A DNA stretch of 64,000 bases. Origin: Zoogloea dura. GTDB lineage: Bacteria; Pseudomonadota; Gammaproteobacteria; Burkholderiales; Rhodocyclaceae. The position numbers and the translations under genes were made by a program. Shown here in pieces: positions 5,793 through 55,430 of this stretch (positions are counted from its first letter, which is position 1; each line of letters starts with the position of its first letter). The notes under the pieces are model-generated. The model had not been told where the DNA came from and did not search any database. It saw only the letters and a list, made by a program, of their open reading frames with translations. Where the stretch lies: NCBI RefSeq assembly GCF_012927165.1, contig NZ_JABBGA010000008.1, positions 62,001 to 126,000 of the forward strand, given 5' to 3'.

Positions 5793-6613
5793 GCTACGGT
5801 GATGCCTTCGTGCTGACCCTGTTCACCCGGGATGGGGCCGTGGCGCTTGCGGCTGACCGGGCGGGCATCGACCGGATCGGTGTGGACCTGGAGCGCCTGA
5901 ACAAGGATGAGCGCCAGGGCGGACTGGCTACCTGGATCTCCGATCACGCCGAGACCGACCTAGCCACCCTCGCCGGGCAGGTCTCCCCGGCGCGGCTGTT
6001 CGCCCGCTGCAATCCGATTCATGCAGGATCGGCTGACGAGATAGAGCGTCTTCTCGCCCTGGGCGCCCGGACGCTGATGCTGCCCTTCTTCCGCAGCGTC
6101 GATGAAGTCGCCCGCTTCGTGGACCTGGTGGCGGGGCGGGCCCACCCCGTGCCCTTGCTGGAAACCGCCGAGGCGGCCGCGGTGGCGGGGGCGATCTGCC
6201 GCATTCCGGGGCTGTCGGAGATCCACGTCGGGCTGAACGATCTGCGCCTTTCCCTGGGGTGGCCGACGCACTTCCATGTGCTGGTGTCCGGCCTGCTCGA
6301 AGCGTTGGCTGACACCATACTGGGGGCGGGCCTGGATCTGGCCGTGGGCGGTGTCGGCCGGGCCGGCGACAGGCATCTGCCCATCCCCGCCGACCTGGTC
6401 CTGGCTCAGTATCCCCGTCTCCGGGCGGGCGGAGCCCTGGTCTCGCGGGCCTTCTTTGCCGGCAGTGAGCCTCCTGAGCTGGCCCGCGATGTCCCTGCCC
6501 TGCGGCAGCGCCTCGACGAATACGCTGCGGCATCACCGGCCTGGCTGGCGGCCCGGCGCCGGGAGCTGGCGGAACGGGTGGGTGCACCGGAGGCGGGCGC
6601 CAGAAGGGGCTGA
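5789..6613 (+). CDS. HpcH/HpaI aldolase / citrate-lyase beta-like protein
   Basis: A 274-residue TIM-barrel of the HpcH/HpaI superfamily, whose members cleave or form C-C bonds in 2-keto-3-deoxy acids or acyl-CoA esters with a divalent metal. The substrate Arg lies in FARCNPIH, the first metal ligand Glu in PLLETAEA, and the second acidic ligand in HVGLNDLRLSLG. Length is typical of the short citrate-lyase-beta-like group. It is coupled to the dehydrogenase gene by an ATGA overlap. With the neighbours this suggests processing of a hydroxy- or keto-acid, but the substrate is unknown. Confidence 0.78.
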   Translation: MSYGDAFVLTLFTRDGAVALAADRAGIDRIGVDLERLNKDERQGGLATWISDHAETDLATLAGQVSPARLFARCNPIHAGSADEIERLLALGARTLMLPFFRSVDEVARFVDLVAGRAHPVPLLETAEAAAVAGAICRIPGLSEIHVGLNDLRLSLGWPTHFHVLVSGLLEALADTILGAGLDLAVGGVGRAGDRHLPIPADLVLAQYPRLRAGGALVSRAFFAGSEPPELARDVPALRQRLDEYAAASPAWLAARRRELAERVGAPEAGARRG

Positions 6614-29057: not shown

Positions 29058-30127
29058 ACGTCGAGCTTGCCGAGCGCAGCTATTCCATCCGTATCGGAAG
29101 CGGTCTGCTGGGCGATGCCCGGCTGATCCTGCCCTACCTGAAGACCAAACGGGCGGCCGTGATCACCAACGAGGTGGTCGGTCCGCTGTATCTGGATGCC
29201 TTCGCGGCAGGCTTGGAGGATGCTGGCATCCGGGTGACCCGTATCGTCCTGCCTGATGGTGAAGCCCACAAGGACTGGCCGACCCTCAACCTGATCTTCG
29301 ATCGCCTGCTTGCCGAGCGCTGTGATCGCAGCACCACCCTGATCGCCCTGGGGGGCGGGGTGGTGGGCGACATGGTCGGCTTTGCCGCGGCCACCTACCA
29401 GCGGGGCGTCCCCTTCATCCAGGTACCCACCACCTTGCTGTCCCAGGTGGATTCCTCCGTGGGGGGCAAGACCGCCATCAACCACCCGCTGGGCAAGAAC
29501 ATGATCGGTGCCTTCTACCAGCCGCGCCTGGTCCTGGCCGATACCAAGGTGCTCGACACCCTGCCCGACCGGGAGTTGAAGGCCGGCCTGGCGGAAGTCA
29601 TCAAGTACGGCCTGATCCGCGATCTGCCCTTCTTGGAATGGATTGAAGCCCATCTGGAGCGCCTGCTGGCCCGCGAGCCGGAGGCCCTAGCCGAGGCGGT
29701 CGAGCGTTCCTGCCGCAACAAGGCCGAGGTGGTGGCTGCCGACGAGACCGAGCAGGGCGAGCGGGCCACGCTCAACCTGGGGCATACCTTCGGGCATGCC
29801 ATCGAGACAGGCATGGGCTACGGTGCCTGGCTGCACGGCGAGGCGGTGGCGGCGGGCACCATCATGGCGGCCGATCTGTCGCGCCGCCTGGGCTGGCTGT
29901 CCGATGCCGACGTTAATCGTGTCCGGCGCATCCACGAGCGGGCTGGCCTGCCCGTAGCCGGGCCGGTGCTCGGTGCCGAGCGCTACCTGGAGCTGATGTC
30001 CCACGACAAGAAGGTGTCCGACGGTACCTTGCGCCTGGTGCTGCTCAAGGCCGTTGGCAAGGCGGTGATCAGTGCCGAGGCCGCGCCCGAGCAGATGCGC
30101 GCGACCATAAACGCCTGCTGCGCCTAG
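29045..30127 (+). CDS. aroB: 3-dehydroquinate synthase
   Basis: A 360-residue NAD- and Zn-dependent enzyme making 3-dehydroquinate from DAHP in the shikimate pathway. [20 protein letters not shown] is the NAD region; the metal ligands are in [19 protein letters not shown] and WLHGEAVA. It overlaps aroK and is followed by dgt, in the usual aroK-aroB-dgt order. Confidence 0.97.
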
Positions 30128-46194: not shown

Positions 46195-48450
<2,256 letters not shown>

Positions 48451-50143: not shown

Positions 50144-50470
50144 GTGTGGAAAGTATTCAACCTCAGTGAGCTAAAGCACCGGGTCGCAGGCAGTCAGCCG
50201 GCGATTTTCGAATTCCTGCGCAGTTCGCAGATGTCCTGTGCACTCTACCGCCTGCCGGCCGGGGCCCGGGACATGCAGGCGCCGCATTTCGAGGATGAGC
50301 TCTACATGGTCCTGGAAGGCCACGCCCGCCTGCGCGTCGACGGCCAGGAACAGGATGTGGGGCCGGGCATGGTGCTGTTCGTGAGCGCGACCACCGAGCA
50401 TTCCTTCTTCGACATCAAGGAAGACCTGACCCTGATGGCCATGTTCGGGCCCTCGGGCGGGATGGCCTGA
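50144..50470 (+). CDS. Cupin-domain protein
   Basis: A 108-residue single-cupin protein. The conserved beta-barrel motifs are APHFEDELYMVLEGHARLRV (metal-type motif 1 with His and Glu ligands) and VSATTEHSFFDIKEDLTLM (motif 2). The function of such small cupins varies. The start is GTG at 50144, after CCTTGGGG; there is no ATG near. A terminator at 50524 follows. Confidence 0.82.
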   Translation: MWKVFNLSELKHRVAGSQPAIFEFLRSSQMSCALYRLPAGARDMQAPHFEDELYMVLEGHARLRVDGQEQDVGPGMVLFVSATTEHSFFDIKEDLTLMAMFGPSGGMA

Positions 50471-50523
50471 GCCAAGCCTCCGGGCGCGGTTTTCCCCGTC
50501 CCGGCGCAGCCCCCGCGATATCG

Positions 50524-50557
50524 GAAGCCCGGCACTTCGCCGGGCTTCTGCCTTTTC
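50524..50557 (+). terminator. Terminator after the cupin gene
   Basis: A 10-bp perfect stem GAAGCCCGGC / GCCGGGCTTC with loop ACTTC, followed by TGCCTTTTCTG. Confidence 0.7.
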
Positions 50558-50585
50558 TGCGTACCGCTTGCGCATCCTCGCTTCA

Positions 50586-50614
50586 TTGCAAACCTACCAA
50601 CTAGTAGATAATAT
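50586..50614 (+). promoter_or_regulatory. Promoter with TetR-type operator in its spacer (SoxYZ-like gene)
   Basis: TTGCAA, exactly 17 bp, TAATAT. The spacer (50592-50608) holds ACCTACCAACTAGTAG, nearly the same half-palindrome as at 53609-53630. A repressor bound here would block the promoter of the SoxYZ-like gene. The likely binder is the TetR protein encoded at 52454. Confidence 0.65.
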
Positions 50615-50706
50615 TCCTGCGTCAGGACAGCCCCGGCAAGCCGGACGATTTCTTCGCCGGCCCCAGACCCATAGCGGGGCGTTACCACGACCAAGGAGGA
50701 GATGCG

Positions 50707-51477
50707 ATGAGAGTCGCAGCAATGATGGCGGCGGTGCTCGCTGCGACGGTGCTGGCCGTGCCGGCCGGCAGGGCCGCCGAGCGCGGCGCCGACCCCCTGG
50801 GCTCGCCGCGCTGGGAGGACATGGCGCGCAGCCTGTTGTCCGGCGAGGCTTATGTGTTCGATGCGCGGGTGAAGGTTGAGGCGCCCGACCTCGCAGAAAA
50901 CCCCATGCTCGTCCCGGTCACGGTCGATGCCACGGCCTTGCCCGATGTGAAGGAGGTGCTGGTCTTTGCGGACTTCAACCCCATCCTCGAGATCCTGCGC
51001 TTCCACCCGGAGGCCACCAGCGCCTACCTCGGCTTCCGGGTCAAGCTGCAGCAGTCCTCGCCCTTGCGGGCCGCGGCGAGAACCGCCGACGGCGTGTGGC
51101 ATGTGGGCGGCACGCTGGTGAATACCGCCGGCGGCGGCTGCACCGCGCCCTCTGTCGGGTCGACCTCGACCGAATGGCAGAGACGCCTCAACGAAGTCAC
51201 GGCGCGTGCCTGGAGCGAAGGGCCGATGTCCGGCCGGGTCCGCCTGCGCATCATCCACCCGATGGACACCGGGCTGATTGCTGGCATCCCGGCCTTCCAC
51301 CTCGAGGCGCTGACCCTCCGGGATGAGGCCGGCACGCCCCTGATGCGCCTGGAGATCTCCCAGCCGGTCAGCGAGAACCCGGTGTTCACGCTGTATCGTG
51401 GCAAGCGCGACGGTGCCCTGCAGGCTGCCGGGCGGGACAACAACGGCAACACCTTCGACGTCCGGATTGCACCATGA
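50707..51477 (+). CDS. Quinoprotein dehydrogenase-associated SoxYZ-like carrier protein
   Basis: A 256-residue exported protein: signal peptide MRVAAMMAAVLAATVLAVPA, then a SoxY-like region with a Cys in GGGCTAPS (Cys145, equivalent to the SoxY swinging-arm thiol, but internal rather than C-terminal), then a SoxZ-like beta-sandwich (RLRIIHPMDTGLIAG to the end). This matches the fused SoxYZ-like carriers usually found with PQQ-alcohol dehydrogenases. Its biochemical role is not established. The start follows AAGGAGGAG. It overlaps the MBL hydrolase gene (ATGA). Confidence 0.88.
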   Translation: MRVAAMMAAVLAATVLAVPAGRAAERGADPLGSPRWEDMARSLLSGEAYVFDARVKVEAPDLAENPMLVPVTVDATALPDVKEVLVFADFNPILEILRFHPEATSAYLGFRVKLQQSSPLRAAARTADGVWHVGGTLVNTAGGGCTAPSVGSTSTEWQRRLNEVTARAWSEGPMSGRVRLRIIHPMDTGLIAGIPAFHLEALTLRDEAGTPLMRLEISQPVSENPVFTLYRGKRDGALQAAGRDNNGNTFDVRIAP

Positions 51478-52418
51478 AGCGCCTCATCCTTGCCCTGCTG
51501 GCCTGTGTCTCCCTGGCGGCCCGCGCCGATGATTTCGACTACCGGCTGGTGCCGCAGGCGGTGGCGCCCGACGTGTATGTGTTCGTTGGCAAGACCGAGG
51601 ATTTCGACACGCGGAATGGCGGCAACATCGTCAATACCGGCTTCATCGTTGCGCCGCAGGGCGTGGTGGTGGTCGACACCGGCCCGTCGCTGCGCTATGG
51701 CCGGCAAATGCGCGAAGCCATCGCCCGGGTGACCGACAAGCCGGTGCTGCTGGCGATCAACACCCACCACCATCCCGACCACTTCCTGGGCAACCAGGCA
51801 TTCTCCGACGTGCCGCTCGGCAGCCTGGCGGAGGTGCAGCGGGGGATCGCCAGCGAGGGCAATGCCTTTGCCGAGAACCTGTTCCGCATGAGCGGCGACT
51901 GGATGTCGGGTACCGAGGTCGTGGTGCCGACCCGGACCCTGCAGGCCGGGCCCCTGGAGGTGGGGGGGCGGCGCCTGCGCGTGCTGGCCCTCGACGGGCA
52001 TACCGGGGCCGACCTGGCACTGTTCGACGAAGGCAGTGGCGTCCTGTTCGCCGGTGACCTGGTCTTCAACGACCGGGCGCCGACCACGCCCCATGCCCGG
52101 GTGGCGCGCTGGCTGGCCTCCCTGGACACGCTTGATGCCATGCTGGCCGGCGGCGGCGTGAAGGTGCTGGTGCCCGGGCACGGGGCGGTGTCCGGCAACG
52201 CGGCGCCGATCCGGCGTACCCGTGACTGGCTGGAGTGGCTGTCCGGCTCCCTGCGTCAGGCGGCGGCCGAGGGCCTGGACATGAACGAAGTCCTCGCCCG
52301 GCCCCTGCCGGAGCGCTACAAGGCGCTGCCGGTGGCGCCCGCCGAGTATCGGCGCTCGGTGGGGCACCTGCTGCCGGGCATCGAAGCCGAGGCCCTGGGG
52401 GCGGGCCATGTTCATTGA
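51474..52418 (+). CDS. Quinoprotein relay zinc metallohydrolase (MBL-fold, exported)
   Basis: A 314-residue metallo-beta-lactamase-fold protein with signal peptide MKRLILALLACVSLAARA. The zinc motif HxHxDH is His98-His100-Asp102-His103 in NTHHHPDHFLGN; further ligands are likely in LDGHTGADLALF and GDLVFND. It resembles the metallohydrolase found with SoxYZ-like carriers, related to SoxH. It overlaps the SoxYZ-like gene by 4 bp and is followed 35 bp later by a TetR gene on the same strand. The substrate is unknown; a thiol ester or thiol adduct on the SoxYZ carrier is a guess. Confidence 0.88.
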   Translation: MKRLILALLACVSLAARADDFDYRLVPQAVAPDVYVFVGKTEDFDTRNGGNIVNTGFIVAPQGVVVVDTGPSLRYGRQMREAIARVTDKPVLLAINTHHHPDHFLGNQAFSDVPLGSLAEVQRGIASEGNAFAENLFRMSGDWMSGTEVVVPTRTLQAGPLEVGGRRLRVLALDGHTGADLALFDEGSGVLFAGDLVFNDRAPTTPHARVARWLASLDTLDAMLAGGGVKVLVPGHGAVSGNAAPIRRTRDWLEWLSGSLRQAAAEGLDMNEVLARPLPERYKALPVAPAEYRRSVGHLLPGIEAEALGAGHVH

Positions 52419-52453
52419 TGTCCGGCGGGGCGCGGGATGATAGCCTTCGCTCC

Positions 52454-53038
52454 ATGACCGCTCCAACCCGCTCCCAATTGCTGGCCGAGGCCGAGTACCT
52501 GATCCGTCGTTCCGGCTACTCGGCCTTCAGCTACGCCCACCTGACCGACAAGATCGGCATCACCAAGGCCAGCATCCACTACCACTTTCCCACCAAGCAG
52601 CGCCTCGCCGAAGAGGTCGTCGAGGTCGCCATGGCGCGCTTCGCCGCTGCCCTGGCCGACATCGAGGCCGGGCCGGGCGATGCGCCGGCACGCCTGCGGC
52701 AGTATGCCGAGCTGTTTCTGGATGGCTTCGACGAGCAGTTGCGTCCCCTGTGCTGTGCCCTGTCGGCCGAGCTGGCGGCGCTGCCGGACTCCCTCCATAC
52801 CCGCACCCGGGCCTACTTCGAGCTGCATCTGGCCTGGCTGGGCCGGATCGTCGGGGCCGGCTGCGCGGCCGGCCAGTTGCGCTGGGCAGGGGGCGCCGAC
52901 GCCCTGGCGGCCCTGATCCTGAGCACCCTCGAAGGCGGCAGCCTGGTGGCCCGCGCCATGCAGTCCCGGGCCCTGGCCCTGGACGGCTTTGCGCAGGTGC
53001 TGGCCCTGGCGCTTCCGCCGGCCGGCGCGGACGCCTAG
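52454..53038 (+). CDS. TetR/AcrR family transcriptional regulator
   Basis: A 194-residue TetR protein. The DNA-binding helix-turn-helix is in residues about 25-55 (HLTDKIGITKASIHYHFPTK), followed by a helical ligand-binding domain with two adjacent Cys (LRPLCCALSAEL), which might sense a thiol-reactive compound. It is the last gene after the SoxYZ-like and MBL genes. It is the best candidate to bind the two operators at 50592 and 53609. Its stop overlaps that of the convergent DsrE-like gene in a CTAG. Confidence 0.9.
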   Translation: MTAPTRSQLLAEAEYLIRRSGYSAFSYAHLTDKIGITKASIHYHFPTKQRLAEEVVEVAMARFAAALADIEAGPGDAPARLRQYAELFLDGFDEQLRPLCCALSAELAALPDSLHTRTRAYFELHLAWLGRIVGAGCAAGQLRWAGGADALAALILSTLEGGSLVARAMQSRALALDGFAQVLALALPPAGADA

Positions 53039-53538
53039 AACAGGGGGACCAGCCTGTAGCCCTGCGTCTGGTAGCCGATCAGGGAGATGAAGCCGTCGGC
53101 CACCAGGCTCAGCCCGGGCAGCAGGGTGTTGTCGTCGATCCGAAGGACCCGCGTGGCGATGGCGCAGACCTCGTGGCGCACGCCCAGGTCGGCCAGCTCC
53201 TTGACCAGCATGGCGATGGACTCCAACGCGTCCTGGTGATCCAGCTCGAGCGAGCTGTCCGGCTTGCTGGTCAGGAAGCGCACGGTCGGCCCGATGTACA
53301 CGATGATGAGATCGGGCCTGACGCCCTGGCGCAGCATGCCGCCATGGGTTTCCTTGATGATGCTCAGGTAGAAGGCGGTCTTGCGGGGATCGTTGAAATC
53401 GATCAGGAAGATCCCCTTGCCCTCCGTCACGCCGCGCAGGGCGGCGGCGTCATTGGGGGGGGCCGCCGGGGCGGGAGAACTGGCGAGGAGGGGAACGAGT
53501 GCCGCCAGCAGGCGCAGCCAGGGAGGGATCGGACGCAT
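53035..53538 (-). CDS. DsrE family protein, exported
   Basis: A 167-residue protein with signal peptide (LRLLAALVPLLASSPAPAAP) and a DsrE-fold domain: GIFLIDFNDPRKTAFYLSII, DLIIVYIGPTVRFL, and LADLGVRHEVCAIATRVLRI containing the likely active-site Cys. DsrE-family proteins handle sulfur in relay systems. The ATG at 53538 is chosen because the signal peptide starts there; the open frame continues upstream across the promoter. It has its own promoter/operator matching that of the SoxYZ-like gene. Its export is consistent with a periplasmic sulfur-transfer role. Confidence 0.82.
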   Translation of the reverse strand: MRPIPPWLRLLAALVPLLASSPAPAAPPNDAAALRGVTEGKGIFLIDFNDPRKTAFYLSIIKETHGGMLRQGVRPDLIIVYIGPTVRFLTSKPDSSLELDHQDALESIAMLVKELADLGVRHEVCAIATRVLRIDDNTLLPGLSLVADGFISLIGYQTQGYRLVPLF

Positions 53539-53605
53539 GGGAGTCTCCGGGCCGGAGCGTGGCAAGAGTCGGGCGAATCCGGTTCCACGGCGAAGGCCGG
53601 TGCTG

Positions 53606-53634
53606 AATATACCTACCAACTGGTAGGTATTCAA
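53606..53634 (-). promoter_or_regulatory. Promoter of the DsrE-like gene with TetR-type operator in its spacer
   Basis: On the minus strand: TTGAAT (53634-53629), exactly 17 bp, TATATT (53611-53606). A perfect 10-bp palindrome, ATACCTACCA-AC-TGGTAGGTAT (53609-53630), fills the spacer, the arrangement of a repressor-blocked promoter. Confidence 0.75.
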
Positions 53635-53674
53635 TCCAGGCTGGCTTGCTCAGCCTCAGGTCATGCGGACGAAC

Positions 53675-54058
53675 TCAGTTGCCGCGCCTGGGGCTGCCGT
53701 GGTGTTCCCGCAGCCCCCTGGCGGGCGCCTTCTGAGCAGAGTCGCCGCGGTGGGCCATCAGCGCACGTGCGCCGCCCTCCGGCACGGCCTGCATGTCCTT
53801 GATGTGGATGTTGTTCCACAGCAGCTGGACGGTGGCCGGGCATAGATTGAGCAGGGTGCCGGCGGCGCCGTCCACCGTGATGGCCACGGTCTCGCCGACG
53901 GCCAGGGGGACTTGCTGCCAGTCACCATCGGCGCCCTGCCAGCCGACACTGCCAGGGCCGTCGTCGCCGAGGGCGGTCCGGTAGATATGCACCTTGGTCT
54001 GGATTTCTCCGGCGGCCACCTGGCGGTAGCTGTCGGGCGGGAGGTTCTGGACGGTCAA
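53675..54058 (-). CDS. Uncharacterised short protein
   Basis: A 127-residue protein of unknown function, supported as a gene by a strong ribosome binding site (AAAGGAG, 6 nt before the ATG) and an AT-rich upstream region. It has a beta-rich body with few charges (VGWQGADGDWQQVPLAVGET, AITVDGAAGTLLNLC, QLLWNNIHIKDMQAV) and a basic Gly/Arg-rich tail. No signal peptide. It lies between the DsrE-like gene and the cyanophycinase-like gene. Confidence 0.6.
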   Translation of the reverse strand: MTVQNLPPDSYRQVAAGEIQTKVHIYRTALGDDGPGSVGWQGADGDWQQVPLAVGETVAITVDGAAGTLLNLCPATVQLLWNNIHIKDMQAVPEGGARALMAHRGDSAQKAPARGLREHHGSPRRGN

Positions 54059-54302: not shown

Positions 54303-55430
54303 ATGAAAAAGAATCCGACCAGGCCCGCCATGTCCGGGCATCCGCAAGGCCAGGGCAGGCCGAGGACGGCCCTGCGGGCCGTGCTGCTGGCCACGGCGCT
54401 GCTGTCGGCGGGCCTGGTCACGCCGGCGCTGGCGGCCAACAAGGCCAGACTGAGCACTTACGACCATGGCAAGCCGGTCGATTACCTGCCCTGTGGCGCC
54501 TATGCCCTGCCCACCCGGGCGGCGGTGCTGATGGGCGGCGGGCTGGACGTCAAGGAGGCCTTCCGCTGGATGATCGAGCGCATGGCTGACTGCGGCAGCG
54601 GCCTGACCGGCCGGCCCGGCAACCTGCTGGTGATCCGTGCCGGCGGCAATCCGGCCTACGACAGCTTCATCTACAAGCTCGGCAAGCTGGCTGCGGTGCA
54701 GACAGTGGTGGTCCCCACGGTCGACGCCGCCAACAGCACCGAACTCGAAGGCTACATCCGCAAGGCGGGGGCGATCTGGTTCACCGGCGGCGACCAGGGC
54801 GACTACTACAACTTCTGGAAGGGCACCCTGCTCGAGCGCGTGCTGTCCGACCACGTCCGGACCTACGGCATCCCTGTCGGCGGCACCAGCGCCGGGATGA
54901 TGATCCTGAGCCAGTACGCCTACATCGCCTCCCCCTCCACCATCACCTCGGCCGAGGCCCTGGCCGATCCCTTCAAGCCCGATGCGGTGACCATCAAGCG
55001 GGATTTCTGGACCTACGGCACGCCCTTCGAGCCCCTGTCCGGCACGGTCACCGACTCCCACTTCGACGCCCGGGACCGCATGGGGCGGTTGCTAACCTTC
55101 CTGGCGCGGGTGATCGGCGACGGCTGGAGCTCCGCCGCCACCGCCCGGGCCATCGGGGTGGACCAGGAGACCGCCCTGCTGATGAGCACCACGCCCGGCT
55201 CCGCCGGTGCGCCCTCGGTGACCCTCAGGACCGTCGCCAATCCGGGTGTGGATGGTGCCGCCTACCTGCTCAGGGCCGCCAGCAATTCCAGCCTGGTGCT
55301 GGCGCCCGGGCTGCCGCTCACCTTCACCCGCGTGCAGGTTCGCAAGCTGCCGGCCATCAGCGCGCCGTCCACCTACGAGCTCAATGTGGATGGCGGGCAG
55401 CTGTCATCGTCCACCGGCAGCACCTACTGA
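54303..55430 (+). CDS. Exported cyanophycinase-like S51 peptidase
   Basis: A 375-residue peptidase. A basic N-terminus and hydrophobic signal (LRAVLLATALLSAGLVTPALAA) target it out of the cytoplasm. The catalytic region has the S51 nucleophile in VGGTSAGMMILS; TDSHFDARDRMGRLL matches the cyanophycinase TDxHFxxRxRxxRL motif. Cyanophycinases cut the Asp-Arg polymer into dipeptides. No cyanophycin synthetase is present here, so it probably digests external polymer. The start ATG at 54303 follows GAGGAGG; an in-frame ATG at 54264 is upstream. Confidence 0.85.
   Translation: MKKNPTRPAMSGHPQGQGRPRTALRAVLLATALLSAGLVTPALAANKARLSTYDHGKPVDYLPCGAYALPTRAAVLMGGGLDVKEAFRWMIERMADCGSGLTGRPGNLLVIRAGGNPAYDSFIYKLGKLAAVQTVVVPTVDAANSTELEGYIRKAGAIWFTGGDQGDYYNFWKGTLLERVLSDHVRTYGIPVGGTSAGMMILSQYAYIASPSTITSAEALADPFKPDAVTIKRDFWTYGTPFEPLSGTVTDSHFDARDRMGRLLTFLARVIGDGWSSAATARAIGVDQETALLMSTTPGSAGAPSVTLRTVANPGVDGAAYLLRAASNSSLVLAPGLPLTFTRVQVRKLPAISAPSTYELNVDGGQLSSSTGSTY

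Follow-up and report, generated by a model that had tools for sequence, protein, structure and literature searches.

A predicted two-promoter TetR regulon joining a SoxYZ-like carrier, a metallo-hydrolase and a DsrE-like protein in Zoogloea dura

A stretch of 64,000 nucleotides from Zoogloea dura (contig NZ_JABBGA010000008.1, positions 62,001 to 126,000; hereafter the window) carries a small module in which genes for a SoxYZ-like fusion, a metallo-beta-lactamase (MBL)-fold hydrolase and a TetR-family regulator follow one another on the plus strand, with a convergent dsrE gene on the minus strand. Two promoters with similar palindromes flank the module, which raises the question of whether the TetR encoded between them controls both. 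We analyzed the window within its genome (5.83 Mb, 83 contigs; labeled G000) and against related genomes. The comparisons showed that one type of predicted operator stands at the SoxYZ-MBL-TetR and dsrE promoters and is co-inherited with TetR, and on these sequence grounds the module is very probably a local, self-regulating (autorepressing) TetR regulon of two promoters.

On the plus strand, the SoxYZ promoter TTGCAA-N17-TAATAT (50586–50614; −35 at 50586–50591, spacer at 50592–50608, −10 at 50609–50614) contains ACCTACCAACTAGTAG in its spacer, with six of eight arm pairs matching by eye; the full 18-mer, predicted operator 1 (ACCTACCAACTAGTAGAT, 50592–50609), is an imperfect palindrome. On the minus strand, the DsrE promoter TTGAAT-N17-TATATT (53606–53634; −35 at 53634–53629, −10 at 53611–53606) contains predicted operator 2 (ACCTACCAGTTGGTAGGT, 53611–53628), whose arms are perfect: around the spacer it forms ATACCTACCA-GT-TGGTAGGTAT, two perfect 10-bp arms with 2 bp between them. 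The initial annotation had placed the palindromes exactly in both 17-bp spacers, in the same register to −35 and −10, and had called the second a perfect 10-bp palindrome. The coordinates bear this out, 10 bp being the length of each arm, and at both promoters the operator 18-mer ends on the T that opens the −10. A scan of 50400–53900 for sigma-70-like promoters (threshold 9 of 12) found one, the DsrE promoter; the SoxYZ promoter, with 8/12 consensus matches, falls under that threshold. TetR operators overlapping promoters are a standard arrangement, and here a predicted palindromic operator overlaps the regulator's own promoter.

Within the window, ACCTACCANNNGGTAGGT with up to three mismatches gave six matches (three places, each on both strands) against a shuffle mean of 0.5, and none of 100 window shuffles gave as many as six; the third place, at 29165, is an unrelated match with three mismatches. 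The genome-wide search for further copies that had been proposed with the initial annotation returned CCTACCAACTNGTAG without mismatch only at the two module sites and with one mismatch nowhere. With two mismatches there were 15 matches, comprising operator 2 on the other strand and 14 further ones, and the reversed control of CCTACCAACTNGTAG matched 45 times genome-wide against 17 for the pattern itself. The looser pattern CTACY-N4-RGTAG occurs at seven places, both operators and five others, and no promoter was found at those five, where no in-register hexamer exceeded 2/6 matches.

In both promoters, conservation is highest over the operator. Per-column identity in 10 SoxYZ promoters was 0.90 for the 18-bp operator, 0.57 for the −35 and 0.32–0.33 for the flanks, and in six DsrE promoters 0.89, 0.56 and 0.34–0.46, respectively; a −10 with four or five matches stands in the same register at 16/16 module sites. 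Because the palindromes overlap the −10 at all 16, they might reflect promoter conservation or a structure in the mRNA instead of protein binding. We regard this as very improbable: the whole palindrome is conserved while the −35 varies, the palindrome ends at the −10 and is therefore not transcribed from its own promoter, and similar palindromes are found next to different genes in other phyla.

A second site accompanies dsrE only when that gene is convergent. Both are present in six loci (the window, L019, L020, L021, L022 and L024); the G022 module spans two contigs, L021 carrying TetR and dsrE and L087 carrying SoxYZ with its site, and we counted the two as one locus. In L033 (G014), dsrE lies on the TetR strand, AhpD-like and EamA-like genes (named by eye; L033:1943–6240) stand between MBL and TetR, and there is a single site, before SoxYZ. 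L023, L025 and L026 showed neither a dsrE match nor a second site in 12.6 kb. The proposal that dsrE is co-controlled with the carrier and hydrolase is thus supported, since the loci in which dsrE is collinear with TetR (one) or was not found (three) are without a second site.

The predicted operator and the regulator also share their distribution. TetR orthologues (63–100% identity) occur in 6 of 23 genus genomes (G000, G004, G010, G011, G014 and G022), and the exact core CTACCAACTRGTAG was found in the same six, with all eight matches at the module (reversed control: one match). DsrE orthologues (65–100%) again mark these six, G019 adding a relative of 27%. Among 395 family genomes, a set that does not include G014, the exact core matched eight times in six genomes: seven matches lie at the module (five genomes), and one lies elsewhere, in G342, without flanking half-site bases and with no module gene within 11 kb; the reversed control gave 15 matches by manual count. 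DsrE relatives of 29–35% in six other family genomes were not beside SoxYZ, MBL or TetR in the stretches of 2.1–3.5 kb examined. An order-level search of 399 genomes for TetR returned, besides the window's own, one genome, at 40% identity.

Position by itself is no proof of binding, and G000 has other TetR-like genes (37 first-look candidates). The sites could thus be bound by another TetR-family protein, or the neighboring TetR could be an activator, so that it would not be the repressor of both promoters. Against this, the exact core was not found in any of the 17 genus genomes without a TetR orthologue, despite first-look TetR candidates in every one of them and a SoxYZ copy of the pyrroloquinoline quinone (PQQ)-side kind in 13; moreover, an operator inside the −35/−10 spacer generally favors repression over activation. 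The relatives of the TetR speak to the same point. Thirteen loci were given, and, the upstream region of L035 being too short, 12 were tested, with TetR identities of 21–63%. In 8/12 a like palindrome lies upstream of the relative's own gene (no more than two mismatches, reached by no more than 5 of 300 shuffles); the TetR gene ends in L031 and L032 were guessed, and in L034 the chosen gene start lies above a site at 6006, which was left uncounted. Downstream of the relatives' TetRs, 2/13 regions (L036 and L093) had a site reached by no more than 5 of 300 shuffles. G152, with a TetR of 40% identity, has two sites, with zero and one mismatch, one of them before TetR; the perfect one sits between TetR and a short-chain dehydrogenase/reductase (SDR)-like gene. 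We therefore consider binding by another protein, or activation, improbable. The initial assignment of the motif to the module's own TetR is favored by the shared six genomes, by the conservation of the operator and by the palindromes of these eight relatives.

The neighbors of the TetR relatives are varied, with SDR, OsmC-like, amine-oxidase-like and EamA-like genes among them (by eye), which suggests that this class of operator goes with the class of TetR rather than with the sulfur cargo. Distant relatives with CTACC-type palindromes (L027, L028, L030, L034, L036, L093 and L095) come from Paenibacillus, Legionellales, a spirochaete metagenome-assembled genome and further genomes, and an SDR-like gene adjoins TetR in four of these seven loci (L027, L028, L034 and L093).

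Several observations weigh against the regulon as described. The −35 of the SoxYZ promoter is weak (TTGCAA, 4/6), with 3/6 in four of the 10 SoxYZ promoters compared, and three of the six DsrE promoters (L021, L022 and L024) lack a −35-like hexamer at N17, having GTACAT there. Beside other TetRs the register is looser: of 14 hand-picked sites, 8/14 had an in-register −10 with at least four matches and 4/14 had both hexamers at that level. Four of the 12 upstream regions of TetR relatives are without a convincing site, and L032, among the eight positives, depends on a guessed gene start. The orthologous genomes have a common ancestry, and the co-occurrence is not six independent events. Lastly, G516 has a TetR of 63% identity with no SoxYZ or DsrE match in the 3.6 kb searched, so TetR is not tied to this sulfur cargo; that genome is without the exact core, and its site, GCCTACCTATTGGTAGGT, falls between the genes for TetR and an EamA-like protein.

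What kind of regulator is this? The TetR-family protein (52454–53038, plus strand) has TetR_N and TetR_C_13 domains, with a helix-turn-helix match to PF00440 of 35.9 bits (cut-off 24), a recognition helix near residues 38–44 and a conserved Cys100. Its AlphaFold model (mean predicted local distance difference test score 87.1) has the all-helical TetR fold, and the nearest structures are 2g7s (template modeling score 0.87–0.89), then 3on4 and NemR 4yze. Among solved structures, 2g7s (Agrobacterium) and 3on4 (Legionella), both TetRs from structural genomics, are closest in sequence as well as in fold; they share 28–31% identity with the window TetR, and their entry titles give no function. Cys100 is invariant in nine close TetR orthologues and in nine rows of a mixed set, though not present in every distant relative; because of this conservation we guess that the TetR senses thiol chemistry through Cys100.

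NemR of Escherichia coli, a TetR-family sensor of electrophiles and hypochlorous acid, offers a close comparison. It shares the TetR fold, a cysteine early in the same helix, and the layout of its upstream DNA (L104:1988–2016), where a palindrome TAGACC-N4-GGTCTA lies inside the spacer of TTGCAC-N17-TACACT. It differs in that identity is 25% over 114 amino acids, the half-site is GACC there and CTACC here, and the neighboring genes are not those of the module; furthermore, the sensor cysteine of NemR, C106, aligns with Pro98, Cys100 being two residues further on.

The module genes bear names that the profile matches uphold for all four proteins of the initial annotation. The SoxYZ-like fused carrier (50707–51477, plus strand) scored 215.5 bits with TIGR04557 (cut-off 140), and the MBL-fold hydrolase (51474–52418, plus strand) 418.3 bits with TIGR04558, quinoprotein relay zinc metallohydrolase 1 (cut-off 300); with the true SoxY and SoxZ profiles the scores were 70.8 and 22.1 bits, below the cut-offs of 125 and 76. 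The DsrE-like protein (53035–53538, minus strand), whose gene is convergent with TetR and overlaps its end by 4 bp, scored 34.9 bits with PF02635 (cut-off 22.7). It has one cysteine, Cys125, that is invariant in 11 aligned rows, and it may act in sulfur transfer. A TTG start of dsrE at 53634, with which the reading frame would cross operator 2, was set aside; the ATG at 53538 is preferred because GGAG precedes it and the start is common to L019 and L020. Signal peptides of SoxYZ, MBL and DsrE were judged by eye.

Does the carrier pair then serve PQQ enzymes? One PQQ-dehydrogenase query at E = 1e-3 matched nothing in the window, nor in 12 stretches (10–18 kb) from nine other module genomes, and G000 holds another SoxYZ/MBL copy beside a PQQ dehydrogenase. 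TIGR04557 matched in 23/23 genus genomes and over the cut-off in 22; the match in G008 is below it, and G005 and G007 have near-cut-off matches with an internal stop. Among 30 TIGR04557 loci of up to 3.7 kb each, 20 have a PQQ dehydrogenase, 19 of these with SoxYZ identities of 56–61% and one, in G009 (L038), with 66.5%; none was found beside the six TetR-site SoxYZ copies in stretches of the same size. In a SoxYZ tree of 31 rows, 10 TetR-site copies lie on one side of a branch with support 94/92, just below the program's star, and the G009 copy neighbors them on a long branch. The tree omits 9 of 40 rows (three of 27–34% identity that resemble true SoxY/SoxZ, and six duplicates), and all its non-TetR rows are labeled PQQ, though L061 shows no PQQ dehydrogenase in 2.5 kb. 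Judged by profile, neighborhood and tree, the module pair is a second, PQQ-unlinked paralogue of the quinoprotein relay pair. In G009 (L038 and L088), the SoxYZ closest to the TetR group adjoins a PQQ dehydrogenase, and the genome is without the exact TetR-site core; this arrangement is possibly intermediate between the two module kinds.

The pair PP_2677/PP_2678 of Pseudomonas putida resembles ours in its adjacent carrier and hydrolase genes and in the family cut-offs passed here. It differs in that our pair has no PQQ dehydrogenase nearby, forms a clade apart from the genus's PQQ-linked copies, and is joined to TetR and DsrE with TetR-type operators. Passages of PMC12997753 associate the SoxYZ-like/SoxH-like pair with PQQ alcohol dehydrogenases and suggest that PP_2677/PP_2678 serve PQQ enzymes, leaving the function open: phenotypes were minimal under the conditions tested there, and disulfide formation, cofactor stabilization and PQQ protection are offered. 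Similarly, the relevant passages of PMC11582611 place a Hyphomicrobium Sox(YZ)-SoxH ensemble under PQQ-dependent alcohol catabolism. The module might thus still serve PQQ dehydrogenases made elsewhere in the cell, in maturation or protection. In that case its induction would be linked to the metabolism of alcohols or aldehydes, in place of a PQQ-independent sulfur or thiol response. We hold this to be a substantial possibility, and it is compatible with the regulon: the SoxYZ and MBL scores exceed the quinoprotein relay cut-offs and the G009 copy adjoins a PQQ dehydrogenase, whereas the module stretches showed no such enzyme, G000 keeps a separate copy beside one, and the partner gene here is DsrE.

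A terminator-like stem-loop (50522–50550, plus strand) lies 3′ of a cupin gene and 5′ of the SoxYZ promoter. Further away, the window holds a 734-amino-acid open reading frame at 46246–48450, by eye a KatG-type catalase-peroxidase, which is also found 5′ of the module in L020, and at 54303–55430 a peptidase of family S51 that resembles cyanophycinase and has an apparent signal peptide (TIGR02069, 62.5 bits, short of the 126.6 cut-off).

TetR dimers commonly repress by promoter occlusion. In the proposed regulon, a TetR dimer on each operator would exclude RNA polymerase from both promoters and would thereby curb its own production; release, by a ligand or by modification of Cys100, would turn on all four genes together. 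The SoxYZ carrier, the MBL hydrolase and DsrE, if exported as predicted, would form a periplasmic relay handling sulfur or thiols, an inducible paralogue of the pair beside PQQ dehydrogenases. More speculatively, and with considerable doubt, the TetR may respond through Cys100 to electrophiles or reactive sulfur and control a dedicated, PQQ-independent periplasmic relay: DsrE would hand sulfur to SoxYZ or receive it from there, and the metallohydrolase would release it. Such a relay would have been recruited from a quinoprotein accessory pair, and the TetR would represent a class with CTACC half-sites across phyla.

We searched the literature for precedents. Text searches for operator strings of 14–16 bases returned no paper, and among the matches listed for a looser search of operator letters none holds the 12- or 14-base strings or has TetR in its title. 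Among the matches listed, none dealt with a link between TetR and SoxYZ, a quinoprotein, DsrE or a metallo-hydrolase, so a TetR regulon of a SoxYZ/SoxH pair with DsrE is without precedent among them. Two candidates were set aside: in the relevant parts of PMC10304680 the TetR motif has the form AAAC..GTTT and CTACC/GGTAG belong to primers, and the operator of CssR of Corynebacterium is TAA(G)TG-N13-CA(G)TTA. SoxR and sHdrR, ArsR-type sulfane-sulfur repressors that according to PMC12423496 regulate thiosulfate oxidation, are likewise repressors of sulfur genes; they differ in belonging to the ArsR family, not TetR, and in controlling a true Sox thiosulfate system.

The shared operator offers a way into a TetR class with no characterized member among the literature matches listed. 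In Z. dura and its relatives, the carrier pair appears freed from the dehydrogenase, joined to DsrE and placed under a switch of its own, and the inducer of this TetR would reveal what the pair responds to.

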